Shown: positions 8,611 through 54,000 of the stretch, one piece after another
Numbering within the stretch: position 1 is the first letter of the stretch
How the letters are laid out: every line of letters begins with the position of its first letter
Assembly (NCBI RefSeq): GCF_002688585.1
Contig: NZ_CP024034.1
Coordinates: 177,501 to 241,500, forward strand
Length of the DNA: 64,000 nt
Direction of reading: 5' to 3'
Source of the DNA: Candidatus Fonsibacter ubiquis
Lineage (GTDB): Bacteria; Pseudomonadota; Alphaproteobacteria; Pelagibacterales; Pelagibacteraceae
Notes under the pieces: model-generated
What the model saw: only the letters and a program-made list of their open reading frames with translations
What the model was told of the DNA's origin: nothing
Database searches by the model: none
Position numbers and translations under genes: made by a program

Positions 8611-9714
8611 TTAATTTATGTGATAATAAATGGTTTCATTTATAAGAGTATCATCTTTAAGATCATCAATAGCTACGTTTCCTAATTGGTTTAACTTTAT
8701 ATATCTTGGTATGGAATTTATTCTTTTTTTGTCCAAGAACAAATTTGTATAAATTTGGTTTTGTATATTAAGAAGTAATTTTTTTGAACATTGTATTTTT
8801 ACTGGAAGATTATAAATTTTTAATAATTTCTCAACAGCCTTGTAAATTTTAGATATACCTTTTTTTGCATAATATATTTCCGCCAATATTCCAATTCCAA
8901 CAGCTTCTCCATGTCTTAAAATTTCTTTTTTAAAAATTTTTTCTGTTGCCATTTCTATTGCATGAGCAAATGTATGTCCAAAATTGAGTGATAACCTTTT
9001 ATTATTTTCATGAATATCGTTTTTAACAAAAAAAATTTTTGTTTGAAGGGTAAGGGCTATAACAGACGAAATTGTTTTAAAATCTTTATTTTTAATTTTT
9101 TTTTCTTGCGTTTCTAATATTTTAATAATTTTATTATCTCTAATTAGACCACATTTTATTATTTCTGCTATTCCTGATTTATACTCTCTTTCAGGCATTT
9201 TATTAATTATTTCATATGATATGAAAATTGATTTTGGGTGATAATAATTGCCAACAGAATTAGTTATATTTTTGTAATTTATTGCAGTCTTTCCTCCAAT
9301 GCAACTATCAACGATTGATGTCATTGTTGAAGGTATATGAAAATATATTAGTCCCCTCAAATATAAACTTGCTGCCAATCCACTTAAGTCACCTATGACT
9401 CCTCCACAACATGAAATAAGTATTGATTTTTTTGTGAAATCATTTTTAATTAAAAAATCAATAATTTTAAAAAGATTTTTTTCATTTTTTTCTTTTTTTA
9501 AACCTTTTAGCGGCATCAAAAAAATTTTTGTGCCAAGAATCTTCAAATTATTTTTTATTTTTTCAATTAAAGAATGATCTATATTTGGATCATAGACTAG
9601 AAGCATTTTTCTATCAGAATCTAAATTCTTAATACTTTTATAAATAGAAGGTATGATATTCTGCTTAATATAAATTTTATTTATATTACCATTAATTTTA
9701 TAATTAATTTCCAT
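8611..9714 (-). CDS. Sugar-phosphate cyclase, 3-dehydroquinate-synthase-like (AroB superfamily)
   Basis: A 367-residue member of the AroB / sedoheptulose-7-phosphate cyclase superfamily: NAD-binding CGGVIGDLSG (about 103-112), IPSTMTSIVDSCIGGKTAIN (127-146), AEIIKCG and GHTFAHAIE. The zinc ligands Glu184, His247 and His268 are present. Aligned with classical dehydroquinate synthases, the usual K-N-x-I-G phosphate-site block reads TNSVG here, with Thr151 where Lys is expected. It is the last gene of a three-gene minus-strand operon and directly abuts a KdsB-like gene, so a cyclitol or related precursor for CMP activation is more likely than a shikimate-pathway role. A simple second AroB cannot be excluded. 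Confidence 0.85.
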   Translation of the reverse strand: MEINYKINGNINKIYIKQNIIPSIYKSIKNLDSDRKMLLVYDPNIDHSLIEKIKNNLKILGTKIFLMPLKGLKKEKNEKNLFKIIDFLIKNDFTKKSILISCCGGVIGDLSGLAASLYLRGLIYFHIPSTMTSIVDSCIGGKTAINYKNITNSVGNYYHPKSIFISYEIINKMPEREYKSGIAEIIKCGLIRDNKIIKILETQEKKIKNKDFKTISSVIALTLQTKIFFVKNDIHENNKRLSLNFGHTFAHAIEMATEKIFKKEILRHGEAVGIGILAEIYYAKKGISKIYKAVEKLLKIYNLPVKIQCSKKLLLNIQNQIYTNLFLDKKRINSIPRYIKLNQLGNVAIDDLKDDTLINETIYYHIN

Positions 9715-10470
9715 CTATATTTTATATAACTTGAGATATTTGTCGGATAAAATAAATTTTGATGCTTTAATATAATCTTCTTTAACATCAACAGAAAAAC
9801 TATCTCCTTTGAGATTTATAGTTTTTATTTTTAAACCAAGTTCTAAAGCTCTCAGCAACTCAATATCCTCAATAGACTCAAGTGTTGTTTTTTCAGATTT
9901 ACAAAATATTTCTAAAGCATTAGGCTTGAATGAAATTATTGATAAATGCTTTCTAAATTTTTTTTCGTTTTTTTTAAATTCAAAGGGTATGTTCGATCTT
10001 GATAAATAAAGTACGTAATTTTTTTTATCACATACCACTTTTACTATATTTGTATTATTTTTTTGGCTGCTTAATAATGTCGGCAAGATTATATCAGTTT
10101 GATCATAATTTTTAAGATGTTCTTTAATTACTTGATCAATGTGCATTGGGCTAATAAGTGGTTCGTCACCCTGTATGTCAACAATTAAATCGTATTTTTG
10201 ATTAAGAGATTTATAAGCTTCACCTATTCTTTCTGTCCCATTAGCATGATGTCTCGAAGTGATGATGCACTTTGCTTTATATTTTTTTGCTACATTATAA
10301 ATTTTTTCATCATCACAACAAATATAAACATCATCAATTTTCTTTGAAAGCCTAGCTCTTTTGTATGTATGGATTATTAAAGGAATGTTCTGAATCTCCA
10401 GAAGAGCTTTATTAGGTAATCTAGATGAGTTCAGTCTAGTTGGTATTAATCCTATAATTTTTTTTTTCAT
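9715..10470 (-). CDS. CMP-sugar synthetase, KdsB-like (3-deoxy-manno-octulosonate cytidylyltransferase family)
   Basis: The nucleotide-binding IPTRLNSSRLPNKAL block at the N-terminus, a TSRHHANGTERI block and DIQGDEPLI (about residues 90-98) are typical of KdsB, which activates Kdo with CTP. The chosen start is the ATG at 10470, which overlaps the TGA of the upstream SDR as ATGA; an ATG four codons earlier would overlap more. It sits between an SDR and an AroB-like cyclase, so the substrate may not be Kdo but the product of these neighbours. It is soluble and cytoplasmic. Standard Kdo activation remains the simplest alternative. Confidence 0.87.
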   Translation of the reverse strand: MKKKIIGLIPTRLNSSRLPNKALLEIQNIPLIIHTYKRARLSKKIDDVYICCDDEKIYNVAKKYKAKCIITSRHHANGTERIGEAYKSLNQKYDLIVDIQGDEPLISPMHIDQVIKEHLKNYDQTDIILPTLLSSQKNNTNIVKVVCDKKNYVLYLSRSNIPFEFKKNEKKFRKHLSIISFKPNALEIFCKSEKTTLESIEDIELLRALELGLKIKTINLKGDSFSVDVKEDYIKASKFILSDKYLKLYKI

Positions 10471-11210
10471 GAAGCCGTCCAACCACCATCAATATTTATT
10501 GATTGACCGTTAATATAAGTTGAATTATTAGATAACAGAAAAATTATCAATTTTGATATTTCTTTAGCTTCACCCCATCTTCCAATAGGGATTTTTTTTA
10601 AAGTCCAATTATATAAAGATTTTTTTTCATTTTTAAATTTACTATAAAATGAAGTTCGAGTAAAACCTGGATTTACATTATTGATCCTTAATTTTTTAAA
10701 TTTGGGGGTCAGTTCTACAGCTAAACATTTTGTTAATCCTTCAAGAGCAGACTTGCTGGAAGCGTAACCAGAAAGTTCTTCAAAGCCTTTGTTGCCCACA
10801 ATAGATCCTATATTTACAATAGAGCTCTCCTTGTTTTTATTTATAGTTTTTATAAATTTTTGTATTATAAAAAATATAGAAAAAAAATTAACGTTCATTA
10901 TATGATCTAGACGTTCACGATCTATTTTTTCAAACGGCAACCTTTGTCTTTGACCGGCATTATTTACTAATCCATCTAATTTTATTTTTTTTTTTAAAAA
11001 GTAATCAAATATTTTAGATACAAATTTATTATTCGTAACATCTCCAAAAAAAATTTTTATTTTTTTTTTATTAAATTTGAATTCTTGTAAATCTTTTTTA
11101 TTTTTACAAACGGCGTACACATTAGCTTCTAGTTTGATGCATTCAAAAAATAATTCCTTACCAATGCCTTTTCCTATTCCAGTGATTAAAATATTTTTAT
11201 TTTTTAACAT
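10467..11210 (-). CDS. Short-chain dehydrogenase/reductase (classical, FabG-like)
   Basis: A 247-residue classical SDR: TGIGKGIG cofactor motif near residue 10, NNAG at about 87-90, a catalytic Ser in NIGSIVG, the YASSK catalytic Tyr-Lys pair and the C-terminal INIDGGWTAS typical of FabG-like proteins. First gene of the operon SDR - KdsB-like - cyclase-like; its stop overlaps the KdsB-like start. Context suggests it oxidises or reduces a sugar or cyclitol intermediate rather than acting in fatty-acid synthesis. Upstream is a 152-base gap shared with a divergent gene, which must hold promoters for both sides. Confidence 0.87.
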   Translation of the reverse strand: MLKNKNILITGIGKGIGKELFFECIKLEANVYAVCKNKKDLQEFKFNKKKIKIFFGDVTNNKFVSKIFDYFLKKKIKLDGLVNNAGQRQRLPFEKIDRERLDHIMNVNFFSIFFIIQKFIKTINKNKESSIVNIGSIVGNKGFEELSGYASSKSALEGLTKCLAVELTPKFKKLRINNVNPGFTRTSFYSKFKNEKKSLYNWTLKKIPIGRWGEAKEISKLIIFLLSNNSTYINGQSINIDGGWTAS

Positions 11211-11362
11211 TATAAATTGTAGATTAATATTCGCTTTTATAAATTATTATTCATTGTCTATAAAGAATTATTGTTGTTTTTTGATGACAATAACATTTTA
11301 GTCTAGTTTTGGTTCAGAATATATTATTTAATACATAAATTATTTTATATTACGATAATTAT

Positions 11363-12313
11363 ATGCAAAATATTTCAAATATTATTAATTTTTTAATTGA
11401 TTTTTTTTTTAAAAAAAAAATCATTTGCCTTATTAATGCTCCTCAACAATATTTTTCATTAGTAGAATTAATTGAAAAAAAAAAAATTAATGAAAAGGAA
11501 TTATCAATTTACATAGGCTATTGTAGTAAAAGTAGTCAAGATCAAATTAAACACTTAATTAAAAATTATTATTACGTCGGTAATTTTTTTTTTCTCGCAA
11601 AAATTTTCAATGAAAATATTTTTTTAATAATATTAAATTTTTTTAAAATGTTTGGTAAACAAAAAAGCATAATAATTGTTGGTGATTATAAATATTATTT
11701 ATTTAAACCTATATACAGAAATTCTAAAAATATAATATTTTTAGATGAAGGAATAAGTTTGTTAACTTTTGATAATATGTACTCTGGGAATAAAAATTTT
11801 GAGCTTTTTTCAGTTTTTTCGCATTTGGTAAAAGATAACAATAATTTAAATGAATATGCATATCTTAAAAAAAAATTTAAAGATAAAGTTGTAAAAATTA
11901 AAACAATTTTTATTCTTGGTACTCATTTATCTAGTTTTGAAGATATATTAAATAAAGATTTCTATATAAAAAAAATAAATTCTTTTGCAGAAAAAAATAT
12001 TGAATTTGAAATTTTTTATATACCTCACCGTAATGAAAAAGATTTTAATAAAGATGTTCTTTTTAAAAACATTAAAGTCCAAACTATTGATAGGCCTGTG
12101 GAACTTTTTTTAGCAGACCTTCCTTTTTTGCCAGAAATAATAGCTGGTTTTTATAGCATGGCGTTGATAAATTTCAGTATCATTTTAAAAAATATTAAAA
12201 TTTTAAATTTGTCGTTGAGCGATGATGTATATAATACAACTTATCACAAAAAAAATTTTGAAGAGTTTAAAAAAATTTTTAATAGTAAAAATATTCAAAA
12301 TGTAAATTTATAA
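11363..12313 (+). CDS. Putative sialyltransferase-like glycosyltransferase (GT-B)
   Basis: A 316-residue soluble protein. It shows the motif order described for bacterial sialyltransferases: an acidic-acidic-Gly motif (DEG, residues 128-130, in IIFLDEGIS), a His motif (YIPHRNE, His222; the classical form is His-Pro) and a downstream Ser in GFYSMAL (about 265). PVELFLADLPFLPEIIAGF before it resembles the region seen in GT52-like enzymes. If right, it would use a CMP-activated donor, fitting the divergent operon with a CMP-transferase. The family call is by motif only. Its TAA overlaps the ATG of the ABC transporter by one base. Confidence 0.55.
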   Translation: MQNISNIINFLIDFFFKKKIICLINAPQQYFSLVELIEKKKINEKELSIYIGYCSKSSQDQIKHLIKNYYYVGNFFFLAKIFNENIFLIILNFFKMFGKQKSIIIVGDYKYYLFKPIYRNSKNIIFLDEGISLLTFDNMYSGNKNFELFSVFSHLVKDNNNLNEYAYLKKKFKDKVVKIKTIFILGTHLSSFEDILNKDFYIKKINSFAEKNIEFEIFYIPHRNEKDFNKDVLFKNIKVQTIDRPVELFLADLPFLPEIIAGFYSMALINFSIILKNIKILNLSLSDDVYNTTYHKKNFEEFKKIFNSKNIQNVNL

Positions 12314-14052
12314 TGAAATACTTAATTCTTAAAATTATTAAAACCTCTTTTAAACTTCAAAAAGCTAAGTTTCTATTTCTTTTTATATTAATTTTTATTT
12401 CTATGGCTTTCGAACTATTGGGAATATCACTTATTATGCCTGCAATATCTGTAGTTTTAAATCCAGATAAATATATAGAATATAAAAATTTTTTTGGTTT
12501 TAATTTTTTTTCAAAAAAAATTAATGTTCAGATAGGTGTATATTTCTTAATTATATTTTTAATAGTTATTTTTTTTCGTTACATTATTGGATTAATAGTT
12601 GAAATAAAAATTGTAAAATATACCAGAGCTATCGAGACTGATTTAATTAATAGAGTTTTAAAATTACAATTTAACACGCCATGGAAAGATTTATTATTAT
12701 TTGAAAATAAAAAAATTAATAAACTTTTACTTTCTGATATAGGTGTTTATGTAAGTTCTGGTATTTTATTAGTTTTAGATTTAACAAAAAGCCTGCTGAT
12801 ACTTGCTTTGCTATTTTGTTTTTTAATCTATAATAAAGGTGCAATAGTAGTGTATATTGTAATCATCACTGTTTTATTTTTTATTGCAATTAAAAATATT
12901 TCAAAAAATAAATTGCAAGAAATTTCTAAATATAATTCCGATATTACAGAGTTTAGATATGAGTTTATAGGACAGTTAATTAGCGGATTAAGAGAGTTAA
13001 AAATTCTTCAGTTACTTAATTTTTACATAAATAAATATTATCAAAATGAAGTTCGATTTACAAAAATTGAAATTCAACGAAAGTTAGCGGTAATTATACC
13101 CAAAATGTTAGTAGAATTCCTAATTCTTATATCAATTATTACATTAGTAATTTTAAATTTAAGCGACATTAAAAATAAAATACCTTTTGCAGGAGCCTTT
13201 GCTTTTATTTTGTTCAGAACCCAACCATTGATTTCTAATATATTAATTTCATTTTCATCATTACAACTACATCAATCACAAATTAATCAAACTCAGGTTA
13301 TTTTAGATAAAATAGTTTATGAAAGTAAATTTATCAGGGAAAAAACACAAAATACACATGATTCTTTATCTAATATTAGTTTCAAAAATATTAATACTAT
13401 TGAACTGAAAAATGTAAGCTTTGACTATAATAATACTAGAAAAGTTTTTAAAGATCTTAATGTTAAATTTCAAAATGGAAATATTTATGGAATTAAAGGT
13501 GCAAATGGAACCGGAAAAAGTACACTTGCTGACCTTCTTACTGGATTGTTGGAACCAGACAAAGGAATGGTTTGTGTGAATAATATAAATATTAAAACAG
13601 TTAAAAACTGGAAATCTAATATTGCTTATTTATCTCAATCATTCTTTTTGTTTAATGATACAATAAAAAATAATATTGTATTAAATTTTAGCAATAAAAC
13701 TAAGATTGATAATAAATTATATAATTTTGTAATTGAAGTGACAGGATTAAATATCTTTTTCGACTCTTTAATTACTGGCGACAATACCGTCTTATTAGAT
13801 TTGGGAAAGAATTTATCAGGAGGCCAAAAACAAAAAATTGCTATAGCTCGAGTACTTTACAAGAATGTAGATTTAATAATTTTTGACGAGGCTACATCAA
13901 ATTTAGATAAAAAAGGAGTTGATGATTTTTGTGAAATTCAAAAAAAAATTAAAAATAATAAAATTATAATTAATATTTCTCATTCAGACGCAGTTTTAAA
14001 TATAAGTGATAAAATTTTTGAAATAAAAGATAATAAAATAATACTTATTTAA
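12313..14052 (+). CDS. ABC transporter, fused permease-ATPase (MsbA/PglK-type flippase)
   Basis: A 579-residue half transporter: six membrane segments in residues 1-310, then a nucleotide-binding domain with Walker A GANGTGKST (about 396), signature LSGGQKQ (about 501), Walker B VDLIIFDEATS (about 519-528) and the switch His in ISHSD. Members of this type flip lipids or lipid-linked oligosaccharides across the inner membrane. Translational coupling (TAATG) to the sialyltransferase-like gene and its place in a glycan island favour a lipid-linked oligosaccharide as cargo, as with PglK. Its 3' end overlaps the convergent next gene by four bases. Confidence 0.88.
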   Translation: MKYLILKIIKTSFKLQKAKFLFLFILIFISMAFELLGISLIMPAISVVLNPDKYIEYKNFFGFNFFSKKINVQIGVYFLIIFLIVIFFRYIIGLIVEIKIVKYTRAIETDLINRVLKLQFNTPWKDLLLFENKKINKLLLSDIGVYVSSGILLVLDLTKSLLILALLFCFLIYNKGAIVVYIVIITVLFFIAIKNISKNKLQEISKYNSDITEFRYEFIGQLISGLRELKILQLLNFYINKYYQNEVRFTKIEIQRKLAVIIPKMLVEFLILISIITLVILNLSDIKNKIPFAGAFAFILFRTQPLISNILISFSSLQLHQSQINQTQVILDKIVYESKFIREKTQNTHDSLSNISFKNINTIELKNVSFDYNNTRKVFKDLNVKFQNGNIYGIKGANGTGKSTLADLLTGLLEPDKGMVCVNNINIKTVKNWKSNIAYLSQSFFLFNDTIKNNIVLNFSNKTKIDNKLYNFVIEVTGLNIFFDSLITGDNTVLLDLGKNLSGGQKQKIAIARVLYKNVDLIIFDEATSNLDKKGVDDFCEIQKKIKNNKIIINISHSDAVLNISDKIFEIKDNKIILI

Positions 14053-15770: not shown

Positions 15771-16877
15771 ATGTTTAAAAATAAAATACCCTTATTAAAA
15801 GTATCATTACCTAAAAAAAAAATATTAATATCTAAATTATCAAAAACTTTATATTCTGGAAATATTGCAGAAGGAAAAATAGTTTACGAATTTGAAAAAA
15901 ATTTTCAAAAGAAATTTAATTATATCAATTATAATGTGTTAGCTGTAAATAGTGGTACAGCAGCTTTGCATATTGCATATATGTTATGCAAAATTAAAAA
16001 AGGTGATGAAATCATCTCCTCTCCAGTTACAGCAGAACCAACCAATATTGCAATCTTACATGCAGGCGGAAGAGTTAGATTTGCAGATGTGAATCCTTTA
16101 ACAGGAAATTTAGATCCAAAAAGCGTAGAAAAAAATATTAATAAAAATACAAGAGCAATTTGCATAGTCCATTATGGAGGATATCCAGCTGAAGTAGATA
16201 AAATAAAAAAAATTGCAAAAAAATATAAATTATACTTAATTGAAGATTGTGCTCACGCATTGGGTGCAAAAATTTCAAATAAGTTTGTAGGAAGTTTTGG
16301 AGACTTCTCAATATTTTCATTTCAAGCAGTAAAACAAATTACAACTATTGATGGCGGTATTTTATTAATAAAAAATAAAAAATTTTATAAAAAAGCAAAA
16401 AGAATCAGATGGTTTGGTTTAACGAAGAGCTTAGCTAGGTCAAAAAATAGAATTAAAGATCTAGGATATAAATATAATATGAACAATATAACTGCTGTTA
16501 TAGGAAAACTTCAATTGAAACAAATTAATAAGCTAAACTCTATAAGCATTAAAAATGCGAGATTATTTGAAAAAGCTATCAAAAGTAACCCGAATTTGCA
16601 AAATTCTCCAATTGCTAAAAATAATAAATCTGTTTATTGGCTTTTTAATGTATTAACTAAGAATAGTCTAAGATTAATTAAAAAACTTAATTATTTTGGA
16701 ATAGAAGCTTCCAAAGTTCACGTGCTGAATAACATTCATCCAATTTTCAATTCAAACAAATTAAATTTAAAGGGTTGTGAAGAGTTTTATAAAAAAATAT
16801 TACATATCCCATGTGGTTGGTGGTTGAAAAAAAGTAAAAGAAATATAATTATAAATATTCTGAAGAATTTTAAATGA
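15771..16877 (+). CDS. DegT/DnrJ/EryC1-family PLP aminotransferase (sugar aminotransferase)
   Basis: A 368-residue fold-type I aminotransferase. NSGTAALH binds the cofactor phosphate, IEDCAHALGA provides Asp159 for the pyridine nitrogen, and FQAVKQITTIDGG provides the Schiff-base Lys188. It would transfer an amino group onto a keto sugar nucleotide in the cytoplasm. It is the first of three overlapping plus-strand genes: aminotransferase, formyltransferase-like, and a second DegT-like protein without the lysine. This order suggests synthesis of an N-formyl amino sugar. Start: ATG at 15771, 60 bases from the divergent gene. Confidence 0.88.
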   Translation: MFKNKIPLLKVSLPKKKILISKLSKTLYSGNIAEGKIVYEFEKNFQKKFNYINYNVLAVNSGTAALHIAYMLCKIKKGDEIISSPVTAEPTNIAILHAGGRVRFADVNPLTGNLDPKSVEKNINKNTRAICIVHYGGYPAEVDKIKKIAKKYKLYLIEDCAHALGAKISNKFVGSFGDFSIFSFQAVKQITTIDGGILLIKNKKFYKKAKRIRWFGLTKSLARSKNRIKDLGYKYNMNNITAVIGKLQLKQINKLNSISIKNARLFEKAIKSNPNLQNSPIAKNNKSVYWLFNVLTKNSLRLIKKLNYFGIEASKVHVLNNIHPIFNSNKLNLKGCEEFYKKILHIPCGWWLKKSKRNIIINILKNFK

Positions 16878-17539
16878 AAATCATAATTTTAGCTTATAGA
16901 GATTGGGCGTTGAAAGTTGCAGAAAGACTAAAAATATATTTACACAAAAAAAATATTTTAATTATTGAAAAGAGTAATCAATTTTATAAATTGACTAAAT
17001 TAAGCAATAAAAAATCGCTAATTTTAGCTATTGGCTGGAGTAATATTTTAAGTAAAAAGATTGTAAATAAGTTTGAGTGCTATGGCGTTCACCCGTCTGA
17101 TTTACCTAACTATAGAGGTGGTAGTCCAATTCAAAATCAAATATTAAATAATATAATTAATACAAAAGTAAGTATTTATAAATTAACATCAAAAATTGAT
17201 GATGGAGATGTGTATTTGAAAAAAAAACTATCTCTCAAAGGAGATTCAATGAGTGTTATTTTTAATAATTTAGAAACTGCCAGCTTTGAGTTAATTAAAA
17301 ATTTTTTAAAAAAATACCCAAAAATCAAACCATTAAAAAAAAAAATTAAAGGGAGTTATTTTAAAAGAAGATGTCCTTATCAAAGCAAAATTTCAATAAA
17401 TGATTTCAAAAATAAAGGTCTAAAGTTTATTTACAATAAAATTAGATGCTTAACTTTTCCATACCCTAATGCATATATTCAGGACAAAAGTGGAAATAGA
17501 TTATATTTTGAAAAAGTGAGATTTAAAAAAATTGATTAA
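16874..17539 (+). CDS. Formyltransferase-like protein
   Basis: A 221-residue protein of the formyltransferase fold (PurN/Fmt/sugar N-formyltransferases). The signature region reads GVHPSDLPNYRGGSPIQ: the catalytic His73 and the following LPxxRG are present, and IDDGDVY carries the expected Asp (about 109). The Asn two positions before the His in classical enzymes is Gly71 here. It starts four bases before the end of the aminotransferase gene, so it probably formylates the amino group made by it, using N10-formyl-tetrahydrofolate. The Asn change leaves the exact chemistry open. Confidence 0.75.
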   Translation: MKIIILAYRDWALKVAERLKIYLHKKNILIIEKSNQFYKLTKLSNKKSLILAIGWSNILSKKIVNKFECYGVHPSDLPNYRGGSPIQNQILNNIINTKVSIYKLTSKIDDGDVYLKKKLSLKGDSMSVIFNNLETASFELIKNFLKKYPKIKPLKKKIKGSYFKRRCPYQSKISINDFKNKGLKFIYNKIRCLTFPYPNAYIQDKSGNRLYFEKVRFKKID

Positions 17540-18641
17540 ATTATTTAACACAAAATTAAACAATTCATCATTTATATCAACGAAAAAAATCTTTTTGTCA
17601 GGAAAATTTTATAGTGGAATTGAAGTCAAAAAGTTAGAAAATAATCTTTCACGTTATTTTAAAAAAAATAAAAAAGTCGTAGCTTTGTCTGATTTAAGTA
17701 ATGCAACTTTTTTACTATTAAAGGCCTGTAATATAAAAAAGGATGATGAAATATTAGTATTATCATTTAATTGTTTATCTTCTACTACCCCAATTATTAA
17801 TTTAGGCGCAAAACCAGTTTGGATAGATTTGAATAAGAATTACCCTGAAATGAATTTAAGTGATTGTGAAAAAAAAATTAATAGTAGAACAAAAGCTTTA
17901 ATTCTTTATCACGTAGCGGGATATCCTACCGAAACTAAAAAATTTAAAAATTTTTGCAAAAATAATAAAATAATATTTATTGAGGATATTAATAATAGTT
18001 TTGGTAGTGAGATAAATGGTATTCGAGTAGGTGATAATTCAGATTATTCAATTCTAAGTTTTTATCCGAACAGACAAATATCCTCAATAAATGGAGCAGC
18101 AATAATTTCATCAAATAATAAAATTACCAAAAAATTAATTAAGATGAGAAAGTATGGAATAGAAAAAAATAATTTTAGAAAAAAAAACGGTGAAATTAAT
18201 GAAAACTTTCAACTAAATGAAATTGGTTTTTTTTTCGAAATGTCAGATTTGTGTGCATCCATATTGAATCATGAGTTAAAGAATTTCAAAAGAAATTTTA
18301 ATTTGGTATCAAGGAATTTAAATTTGTATCAAGATAATTTACTAAGTAATAAACTTTATACTAAAATTAATTTTTATAAAAATTCGAAATCTAACTGTTG
18401 GGTATATTTCATAAAGTCAAAAAAATCTAATTACATTATTAATTATTTAAAAAAAAGAAATATCGAATGTACTAAACTTCATTTTCCAAATCACCTATAT
18501 AAGAAATTTTCTAGCTTAAATAATAAAAATGAATGTAAAAATACCCTATCTTTTTGGAAAGATTTAATAGCGTTACCTTGCAATTCGTCGATAAGTAAAA
18601 AAAAAATTTTAAAAATAATAAAGATTTTAAATACGATTTAA
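17532..18641 (+). CDS. DegT/DnrJ/EryC1-family protein lacking the PLP lysine
   Basis: A 369-residue homologue of the aminotransferase two genes upstream. The fold motifs are kept (FIEDINNSFGSE with Asp152; LSFYPNRQISSINGAA), but the residue that should be the Schiff-base lysine is Arg181. The usual His/Gln after the Asp pair is also changed. It is therefore unlikely to be a normal transaminase. ColD-type dehydratases of this superfamily use His at this site, so Arg is a further variant. It may be a partner subunit, a binding protein or have new chemistry. The start is TTG at 17532, overlapping the formyltransferase-like gene by eight bases. The end overlaps the convergent gene by 15. Confidence 0.82.
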   Translation: MIKLFNTKLNNSSFISTKKIFLSGKFYSGIEVKKLENNLSRYFKKNKKVVALSDLSNATFLLLKACNIKKDDEILVLSFNCLSSTTPIINLGAKPVWIDLNKNYPEMNLSDCEKKINSRTKALILYHVAGYPTETKKFKNFCKNNKIIFIEDINNSFGSEINGIRVGDNSDYSILSFYPNRQISSINGAAIISSNNKITKKLIKMRKYGIEKNNFRKKNGEINENFQLNEIGFFFEMSDLCASILNHELKNFKRNFNLVSRNLNLYQDNLLSNKLYTKINFYKNSKSNCWVYFIKSKKSNYIINYLKKRNIECTKLHFPNHLYKKFSSLNNKNECKNTLSFWKDLIALPCNSSISKKKILKIIKILNTI

Positions 18642-19334
18642 TTTAGAAATTAATTTTTTATTATAATTTTTGAAAGTTAAAGCTCTTATTATTCTTATTT
18701 TATTATCTTTATTATTATTTTTTTTTAAGTATTTTTCAATAAAAGGTCGAAATTTTTTTTTTTTAAAATATAAATATTTTTTTAATGGTAATTTAGGCTT
18801 TAAAATCATAAATTTATCAAAATTTTTTATAAAATTATTTTTTAAAAAATAAACTAACTCTTTTTCAATTTTAATATACAGCGTCTCGCTCGTATCTTTT
18901 TTATTAATTATTACTTTTTTAGTGTATAAAATTTTACCCGAATCAAAGTTTTGATCCATCCAATGTATTGTAAATCCAGCCATTTGAGTTGGATAGTTAA
19001 TTATCGACATAAACATTATATTTCTTCCTCTGTAATAATTTTTGTATGAGTAATGAATGTTTAAAAAACCAATTTTAGCAGTTTTAAGTATATTTTTTTT
19101 AATTTTTTTATTATAATTTACTGATAATCCTAAATCATAATTTAAATTTTTTAATTGGTTTAATTTTAAATATTTAATTTTCTTTGTATTATTTATATCA
19201 TTTTTCCACCACTTTCTTTTTTCTGTAGTTTTTACAACTCCAACAATTTGTTTTTTAAATAATTTATATATTTTTAATGATAGTGGTCGTGTACCAAGTA
19301 AAACTATAGATTTTTTATTATTAATAATGTTCAT
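18627..19334 (-). CDS. Formyltransferase-like protein (full catalytic triad)
   Basis: A 235-residue protein of the formyltransferase fold. Unlike the paralogue at 16874-17539, the complete Asn-His-Asp set is visible: Asn92 and His94 in FLNIHYSYKNYYRG and Asp131 in NFDSGKILY. It would transfer a formyl group from folate to an amino sugar or similar amine. It overlaps the upstream NodB-like gene by 14 bases in the same direction, so the two form an operon. It faces and overlaps the DegT-like gene. Methionyl-tRNA formyltransferase is unlikely because the C-terminal tRNA domain is missing. Confidence 0.75.
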   Translation of the reverse strand: MNIINNKKSIVLLGTRPLSLKIYKLFKKQIVGVVKTTEKRKWWKNDINNTKKIKYLKLNQLKNLNYDLGLSVNYNKKIKKNILKTAKIGFLNIHYSYKNYYRGRNIMFMSIINYPTQMAGFTIHWMDQNFDSGKILYTKKVIINKKDTSETLYIKIEKELVYFLKNNFIKNFDKFMILKPKLPLKKYLYFKKKKFRPFIEKYLKKNNNKDNKIRIIRALTFKNYNKKLISKLNRI

Positions 19335-53882: not shown

Positions 53883-54000
53883 TGCCTGGTGATTATTGCA
53901 AAGGAGTAACACCCGATCCCATTCCGAACTCGGCAGTTAAGCCCTTTAGCGCCAATGGTACTTTGTCTTAAGGCACGGAAGAGTAGGTCGTTGCCAGGCT
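53883..54000 (+). rRNA. rrf: 5S ribosomal RNA, separated from 16S-23S
   Basis: About 118 bases with the 5S fold: helix I from GCCTGGTG at the start and TGCCAGGC at the end, the conserved CACCCGATCCCATTCCGAACTCGG loop region (in two parts, about 53911-53934) and GAGAGTAGGTCG-like 3' part (AGAGTAGGTCG). No 23S or 16S lies upstream in the window; instead a minus-strand sugar gene begins 70 bases away. Such separation of 5S by a polysaccharide island is known from SAR11 genomes. The ends are accurate to a few bases. Confidence 0.96.

Follow-up and report, generated by a model that had tools for sequence, protein, structure and literature searches.

A conserved dehydrogenase, KdsB-like and AroB-like gene triplet in a SAR11 surface-glycan island, a probable module for a new CMP-activated sugar acid

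A conserved triplet and its housekeeping counterparts

The DNA considered here is a window of 64,000 nucleotides of contig NZ_CP024034.1 from Candidatus Fonsibacter ubiquis (Pelagibacteraceae, SAR11), whose genome is a single contig of 1.16 Mb, and simple coordinates are positions in this window. On its minus strand lie, in the order of reading, a short-chain dehydrogenase (SDR) of sugar-acid type (10467..11210, 247 amino acids (aa), PF00106/PF13561), a KdsB-like cytidine monophosphate (CMP)-acid synthetase (9715..10470, PF02348) and an AroB-like sugar-phosphate cyclase (8611..9714, 367 aa, PF01761/PF24621). Ring-formers of the shikimate type, dehydrogenases of sugar acids and activators of the type acting on 3-deoxy-D-manno-octulosonate (Kdo) usually belong to separate pathways. 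Here, the stop codon of the SDR gene and the ATG of the KdsB-like gene are joined in an ATGA overlap at 10470-10467, and the TAG of the latter is followed directly, with a gap of zero bases, by the ATG of the cyclase. The longest open reading frame (ORF) of the KdsB-like gene is 9715-10482 (TTG start, 255 aa), with the ATG start at 10470. An intergenic region of 152 bp (11211..11362), defined by coordinates and sequence, separates the operon from a divergent glycosyltransferase (GT)-like gene and an ABC exporter gene on the opposite strand, and all five ORFs lie as a preliminary description of this DNA had stated.

The same three genes are found together in other genomes. Indeed, a second cyclase of this kind is encoded by eight of 197 genomes of the family (own included), distributed over three genera, with 50-55% identity compared with about 31-41% for the housekeeping AroB, and in all eight the genes for the SDR, the KdsB-like enzyme and the cyclase lie on one strand and in the same order. 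Further database contigs with the triplet (L044, L045, L046, L048 and L055) bring the count to 13 of 13 SAR11 loci with this cyclase, L047 being left out because it duplicates one of the genomes in the count; the cyclase gene of L046 has the same orientation and stands three genes farther downstream. Because seven other Pelagibacteraceae genomes and further contigs share the gene order, the triplet is no chance arrangement, and its patchy spread over three genera suits an exchangeable island. The three proteins also diverge in step with one another, their pairwise distances being correlated (Mantel r 0.69, 0.61 and 0.53; p<=0.0006). Outside SAR11, orthologues of the cyclase (34%) and of the adjoining SDR (35%) directly follow two PseF-like cytidylyltransferases in a metagenome-assembled genome (MAG) of Ignavibacteria (L049), so that another phylum has the same functional grouping with an activating enzyme of another kind. 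Scans at strict thresholds of 398 Pseudomonadota genomes and of 395 genomes of the phylum of L049 returned no further member of the cyclase clade, and no cyclase or SDR of the triplet type occurs in the 1.5-kb flanks of the KdsB-like relatives that were found from the cytidylyltransferase side. The three genes almost certainly act together, and the view that they form a dedicated CMP-activation module is well supported.

The preliminary description had treated the triplet as a unit distinct from housekeeping AroB and KdsB, which the survey of gene neighbours bears out, as does the remainder of the genome. In particular, a second AroB-family gene at C1:31214 adjoins shikimate kinase (AroK) and passes the aroB cut-off with 370.3 bits, a second KdsB at C1:984344 passes the kdsB cut-off, and KdsA and WaaA are also encoded. 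The window cyclase is neither the sole AroB-family enzyme of the cell nor placed within the SAR11 AroB clade, and the KdsB-like enzyme is not the only Kdo activator. The window gene and the KdsB at C1:984344 are the only two PF02348 genes of the genome, so that a transferase which uses CMP donors would have two possible sources in this cell, CMP-Kdo and whatever the window enzyme makes.

Residues of the three enzymes

As had been proposed from its motifs, the cyclase belongs to the dehydroquinate synthase (DHQS) family and has no Pfam match to the iron-dependent alcohol dehydrogenases (iron-ADH). It shares with AroB the fold family, the NAD and metal catalytic residues and the residues of the carboxylate pocket, and differs from AroB in its linkage to an SDR and a CMP synthetase and in its score against TIGR01357 (260.1 bits, below the cut-off of 305). 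Against TIGR04425, an uncharacterised NCBI family derived from AroB, it reaches 177.7 bits (cut-off 400). In a phylogeny of the kind that the preliminary description had called for, set against DHQS and the 2-epi-5-epi-valiolone synthases (EEVS), 12 SAR11 rows and L049 form one clade (SH-aLRT support 99, stem 0.76), which stands apart from the SAR11 AroB clade (99), from EEVS and from TIGR04425. The backbone among the AroB lineages is not resolved in this tree, so that the cyclase clade may have arisen within AroB. All compared catalytic and binding residues of DHQS are kept in the clade, including the metal ligands and those of the phosphate pocket, with the exception of K161 of Aspergillus nidulans DHQS (AnDHQS), which is replaced by T, I or V, with a new serine at the next position. 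The residue numbers follow AnDHQS and were placed on the alignment by motif, and the window rows of alignments A1 and A2 start after the first Met, which makes their numbering one lower. K250, R264, N268, H275 and K356 are all kept, where two annotated sedoheptulose 7-phosphate (SH7P) cyclases show M, K/E, D, P and R/L, respectively. Since the DHQS pocket is retained and the changes of EEVS are absent, a carboxylated substrate resembling 3-deoxy-D-arabino-heptulosonate 7-phosphate (DAHP), with an altered contact, is favoured, and an SH7P or EEVS-type substrate appears disfavoured by these residues. The validamycin-type systems of EEVS/SH7P cyclases, with GDP-valienol and pseudoglycosyltransferases, can still serve as an analogy, as they likewise cyclise a sugar phosphate, modify it, activate it with a nucleotide and transfer it; unlike them, the window system has a DHQS-type active site and would use CMP rather than GDP for activation.

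The KdsB-like enzyme shares with KdsB and KpsU the fold and the CTP-site motifs, and both the aspartate of the QGD motif and the catalytic lysine are kept. It differs from them in not adjoining Kdo genes and in forming, with its relatives, a clade of its own (support 100, in a tree with long branches). In addition, the changes G181S, Y183I/V and Q209L (numbered in the 255-aa ORF) are present in 12 of 12 triplet enzymes, while the corresponding glycine, tyrosine and glutamine of the GxY and LEQ motifs are invariant in all 24 KdsBs compared. The C-terminal domain of KdsB binds Kdo (PMC3149649), and the alignment places all three positions in this domain. The SDR carries the N-S-Y-K tetrad and an NNAGxRxR motif, the latter in common with the L049 SDR, and its matches include KduD and gluconate-5-dehydrogenase types, below their cut-offs. 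By their residues, the cyclase, the SDR and the KdsB-like enzyme all look suited to a hydroxy-carboxylic acid other than Kdo.

A possible route to a CMP-activated acid

The setting of the triplet is that of a surface-glycan island. The 5S rRNA gene lies at window position 53885 and the 16S and 23S genes begin upstream of the window; hypervariable region 2 (HVR2) of SAR11, a surface-glycan region, is the island between the 23S and 5S genes (PMC2217521), and the window island matches this surface-polysaccharide island. Epimerases, aminotransferases, formyltransferases, methyltransferases and glycosyltransferases are neighbours of the triplet, and the G+C content is 20-23% across the first 48 kb of the window and 29% at its far end. 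An interrupted 23S rRNA, considered on account of a flanking match, was rejected, as the stretch between is masked sequence. At 15771-19334, two DegT-type aminotransferase genes and two formyltransferase-like genes are clustered, which suggests that formylated amino sugars are made in the island.

We infer from these data a substrate, an order of steps, completed ring closure, transfer of CMP to the product and a transferase. The cyclase would take a 3-deoxy-2-ulosonate 7-phosphate (DAHP of the shikimate pathway, or a compound close to it) and, through oxidation at C5, elimination of phosphate, re-reduction and closure of the carbocycle, would yield a keto acid like 3-dehydroquinate (DHQ). Reduction of the ring ketone by the SDR would give an alpha-hydroxy acid that resembles quinate and in effect mimics a 3-deoxy-ulosonic acid with a ring of carbon. 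CMP would then be placed by the KdsB-like enzyme on the hydroxyl adjoining the carboxylate, and a local GT-B transferase would use the resulting CMP donor. Chemically, DHQ corresponds to a 3-deoxy-ulosonate whose ring is all carbon, and the recruitment of a KdsB would thereby be explained. The probable product of the triplet is a new sugar acid activated with CMP, which may be carbocyclic. With a confidence just under even, we lean towards an exchangeable three-step module that supplies a CMP-activated hydroxy-carboxylic acid, by way of a quinate-like ring, to the variable surface glycan of SAR11; that a CMP-activated carbocyclic (quinate-like) acid stands in for Kdo or sialic acid in these glycans is a tentative proposal, to which we give rather less than an even chance. 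A CMP-cyclitol is a plausible product and, to our knowledge, would be the first CMP-cyclitol donor. Literature searches returned nothing relevant on a polysaccharide pathway with an AroB-like enzyme and a cytidylyltransferase, on quinate in lipopolysaccharide or on the name of TIGR04425. The triplet adds a variant to the nucleotide-activated sugar-acid pathways, and only proof of a CMP-cyclitol would make it new in kind. Few organisms on Earth are as abundant as SAR11 bacteria, and their surface glycans, whose structure is largely undescribed, are likely phage receptors. Ring chemistry of the shikimate type, linked in one conserved module to CMP activation of the ulosonate kind, leads one to expect a building block not yet described in these glycans and points to part of what HVR2, described in 2007, makes.

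Several observations weigh against a CMP-activated quinate-like acid. CMP esterified to a tertiary alcohol that is not anomeric would make a weak donor for glycosyl transfer unless it had allylic stabilisation, no transferase is kept with the triplet in every locus, and the module is rare outside SAR11. Moreover, the KdsB-like enzyme passes the TIGR00466 kdsB cut-off (164.5 against 155.2 bits), and the L049 cyclase, which passes the aroB cut-off and is the only AroB-family match found in that possibly incomplete MAG, could make DHQ there. The two passed cut-offs, along with the nearly complete set of DHQS residues in the cyclase, also fit the idea of duplicates, by which a capsule-type second CMP-Kdo synthetase (compare KpsU of E. 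coli), a second DHQ synthase that boosts DHQ and an SDR of unrelated substrate merely share a sugar island. This is distinctly unlikely in view of the tight triplet and the co-varying distances across 13 diverged loci of an island that is fluid in other respects, of the change of invariant KdsB residues and the loss of K161, and of the recurrence of cyclase, SDR and CMP synthetase in another phylum.

The main rival, which we consider unlikely, is an AroB-like enzyme that closes no ring. Acting as a phospholyase, it would oxidise an ulosonate 7-phosphate with its anomeric carbon blocked, for example by CMP, eliminate phosphate and reduce the intermediate again, to give an unusual deoxy or ene ulosonic acid. 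CMP would then occupy a genuine anomeric position, and a hydroxyl would be adjusted by the SDR; this would explain the coupling of a KdsB-type synthetase to a DHQS and would provide a chemically normal glycosyl donor. Support comes from NCBI calling the related TIGR04425 a putative phospholyase and from the behaviour of DHQS itself, which acts on a 2-deoxy analogue of DAHP without ring-opening and aldol steps, with little evidence that the enzyme joins in those steps (PMC7144000). If the anomeric centre is free, however, the later steps presumably run on their own and the ring would close. This rival would also need CMP activation to precede the cyclase step, itself a supposition. A further route can be modelled on that of 8-amino-Kdo (Kdo8N; KdnA/KdnB/KdsB), whose KdnB belongs to the iron-ADH family, related to DHQS, and in which an enzyme of this wider superfamily and KdsB likewise serve a surface sugar acid. 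The AroB-like enzyme would then be an alcohol dehydrogenase acting on Kdo, an aminotransferase would add nitrogen and the KdsB-like enzyme would activate the amino sugar acid, in keeping with the HisC-like aminotransferase gene that lies beside the triplet in a single SAR11 subclade and is also part of a TIGR04425 locus (L209). Against this stand the DHQS rather than iron-ADH membership of the cyclase, its metal ligands and phosphate pocket, and the lack of a universal aminotransferase (no HisC-like gene is adjacent in seven of the 13 loci, although the window has DegT-type aminotransferases about 6 kb from the triplet), which together make this route very unlikely.

Transferase-like proteins and parallel modules

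For the last step of the preferred route, the transfer from a CMP donor, two proteins can be considered. The GT-like gene (11363..12313, plus strand) encodes a putative GT-B transferase and had been linked to the pathway because of the DEG/His/Ser motif order of bacterial sialyltransferases. This order is indeed present (DEG, PHRxE, FYSxAL) and is kept in one homologue of 38% identity, which occurs in one of 247 family genomes, a genome that lacks the second cyclase. The proposed link to the triplet found no such backing: no relative of the gene occurs at the other triplet loci, and Pfam yields nothing for the product at a threshold as loose as E<=5, nor for its homologue at E<=10, while the PDB offers no meaningful sequence match to the product. 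Its single-sequence AlphaFold model is of low confidence (pLDDT 41.5). A role in the triplet pathway is possible for this gene, which lies outside the conserved unit. By one base it overlaps the gene for an ABC exporter of PglK/MsbA type (12313..14052, plus strand, PF00005), a possible flippase whose best NCBIfam match is PglK (170.8 bits, below cut-off) and whose membership in the pathway is equally uncertain.

The other is a protein of about 440 aa, which has no Pfam match and a GT-B-like fold in its predicted structure, and whose gene is found with a radical S-adenosylmethionine (SAM)/SPASM gene near the triplet in 10 of the 13 loci (for example L037:9256-12210); the window, L044 and L045 have neither gene. 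The best structure matches of this protein, to NeuC and UDP-GlcNAc 2-epimerases (Z about 12), to GT4 enzymes and to a polysialyltransferase (Z 10.3), single out no donor. In L055 (5639-6385), a second KdsB-like gene, 45% identical and also changed at Q209 and Y183, adjoins the triplet. L046, titled Euryarchaeota MAG NAT11, is probably a mis-binned SAR11 contig, as its genes are of SAR11 type and 51-54% identical to the window triplet.

A comparable arrangement is found around TIGR04425, whose full name is AroB-related putative sugar phosphate phospholyase (cyclizing). An SDR gene immediately precedes its gene in three of three bacterial loci, and one of them, L209 (4046-10497), is an operon for a HisC-like aminotransferase, two Gfo/Idh-like dehydrogenases, a KdsB-like enzyme, a GmhA-like isomerase, the SDR and the cyclase, the HisC-, Gfo/Idh- and GmhA-like labels being given by sequence resemblance. 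The glutamine of LEQ and the tyrosine of GxY are replaced in the L209 KdsB-like enzyme. Unlike the SAR11 cyclases, TIGR04425 keeps K161, and its SDR lacks the NNAGxRxR motif. A similar module may have arisen separately in the TIGR04425 lineage, and the L209 operon is a possible context for the family, which thereby gains a testable functional setting.

Viral contigs also carry such pairs of genes. All 34 contigs from IMG/VR (L125-L158) encode an AroB-type cyclase with an SDR gene that overlaps or abuts its start, and no clear cytidylyltransferase lies near the cyclase in them. Five sampled viral cyclases group with TIGR04425 or together in trees, none of them within the SAR11 triplet clade. 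Genes for an HpcH/HpaI aldolase, a thiamine pyrophosphate (TPP) enzyme and epimerases flank the pair in L125, a contig of 358 kb, and a route to a sugar or a cyclitol thus seems to be encoded by viruses.

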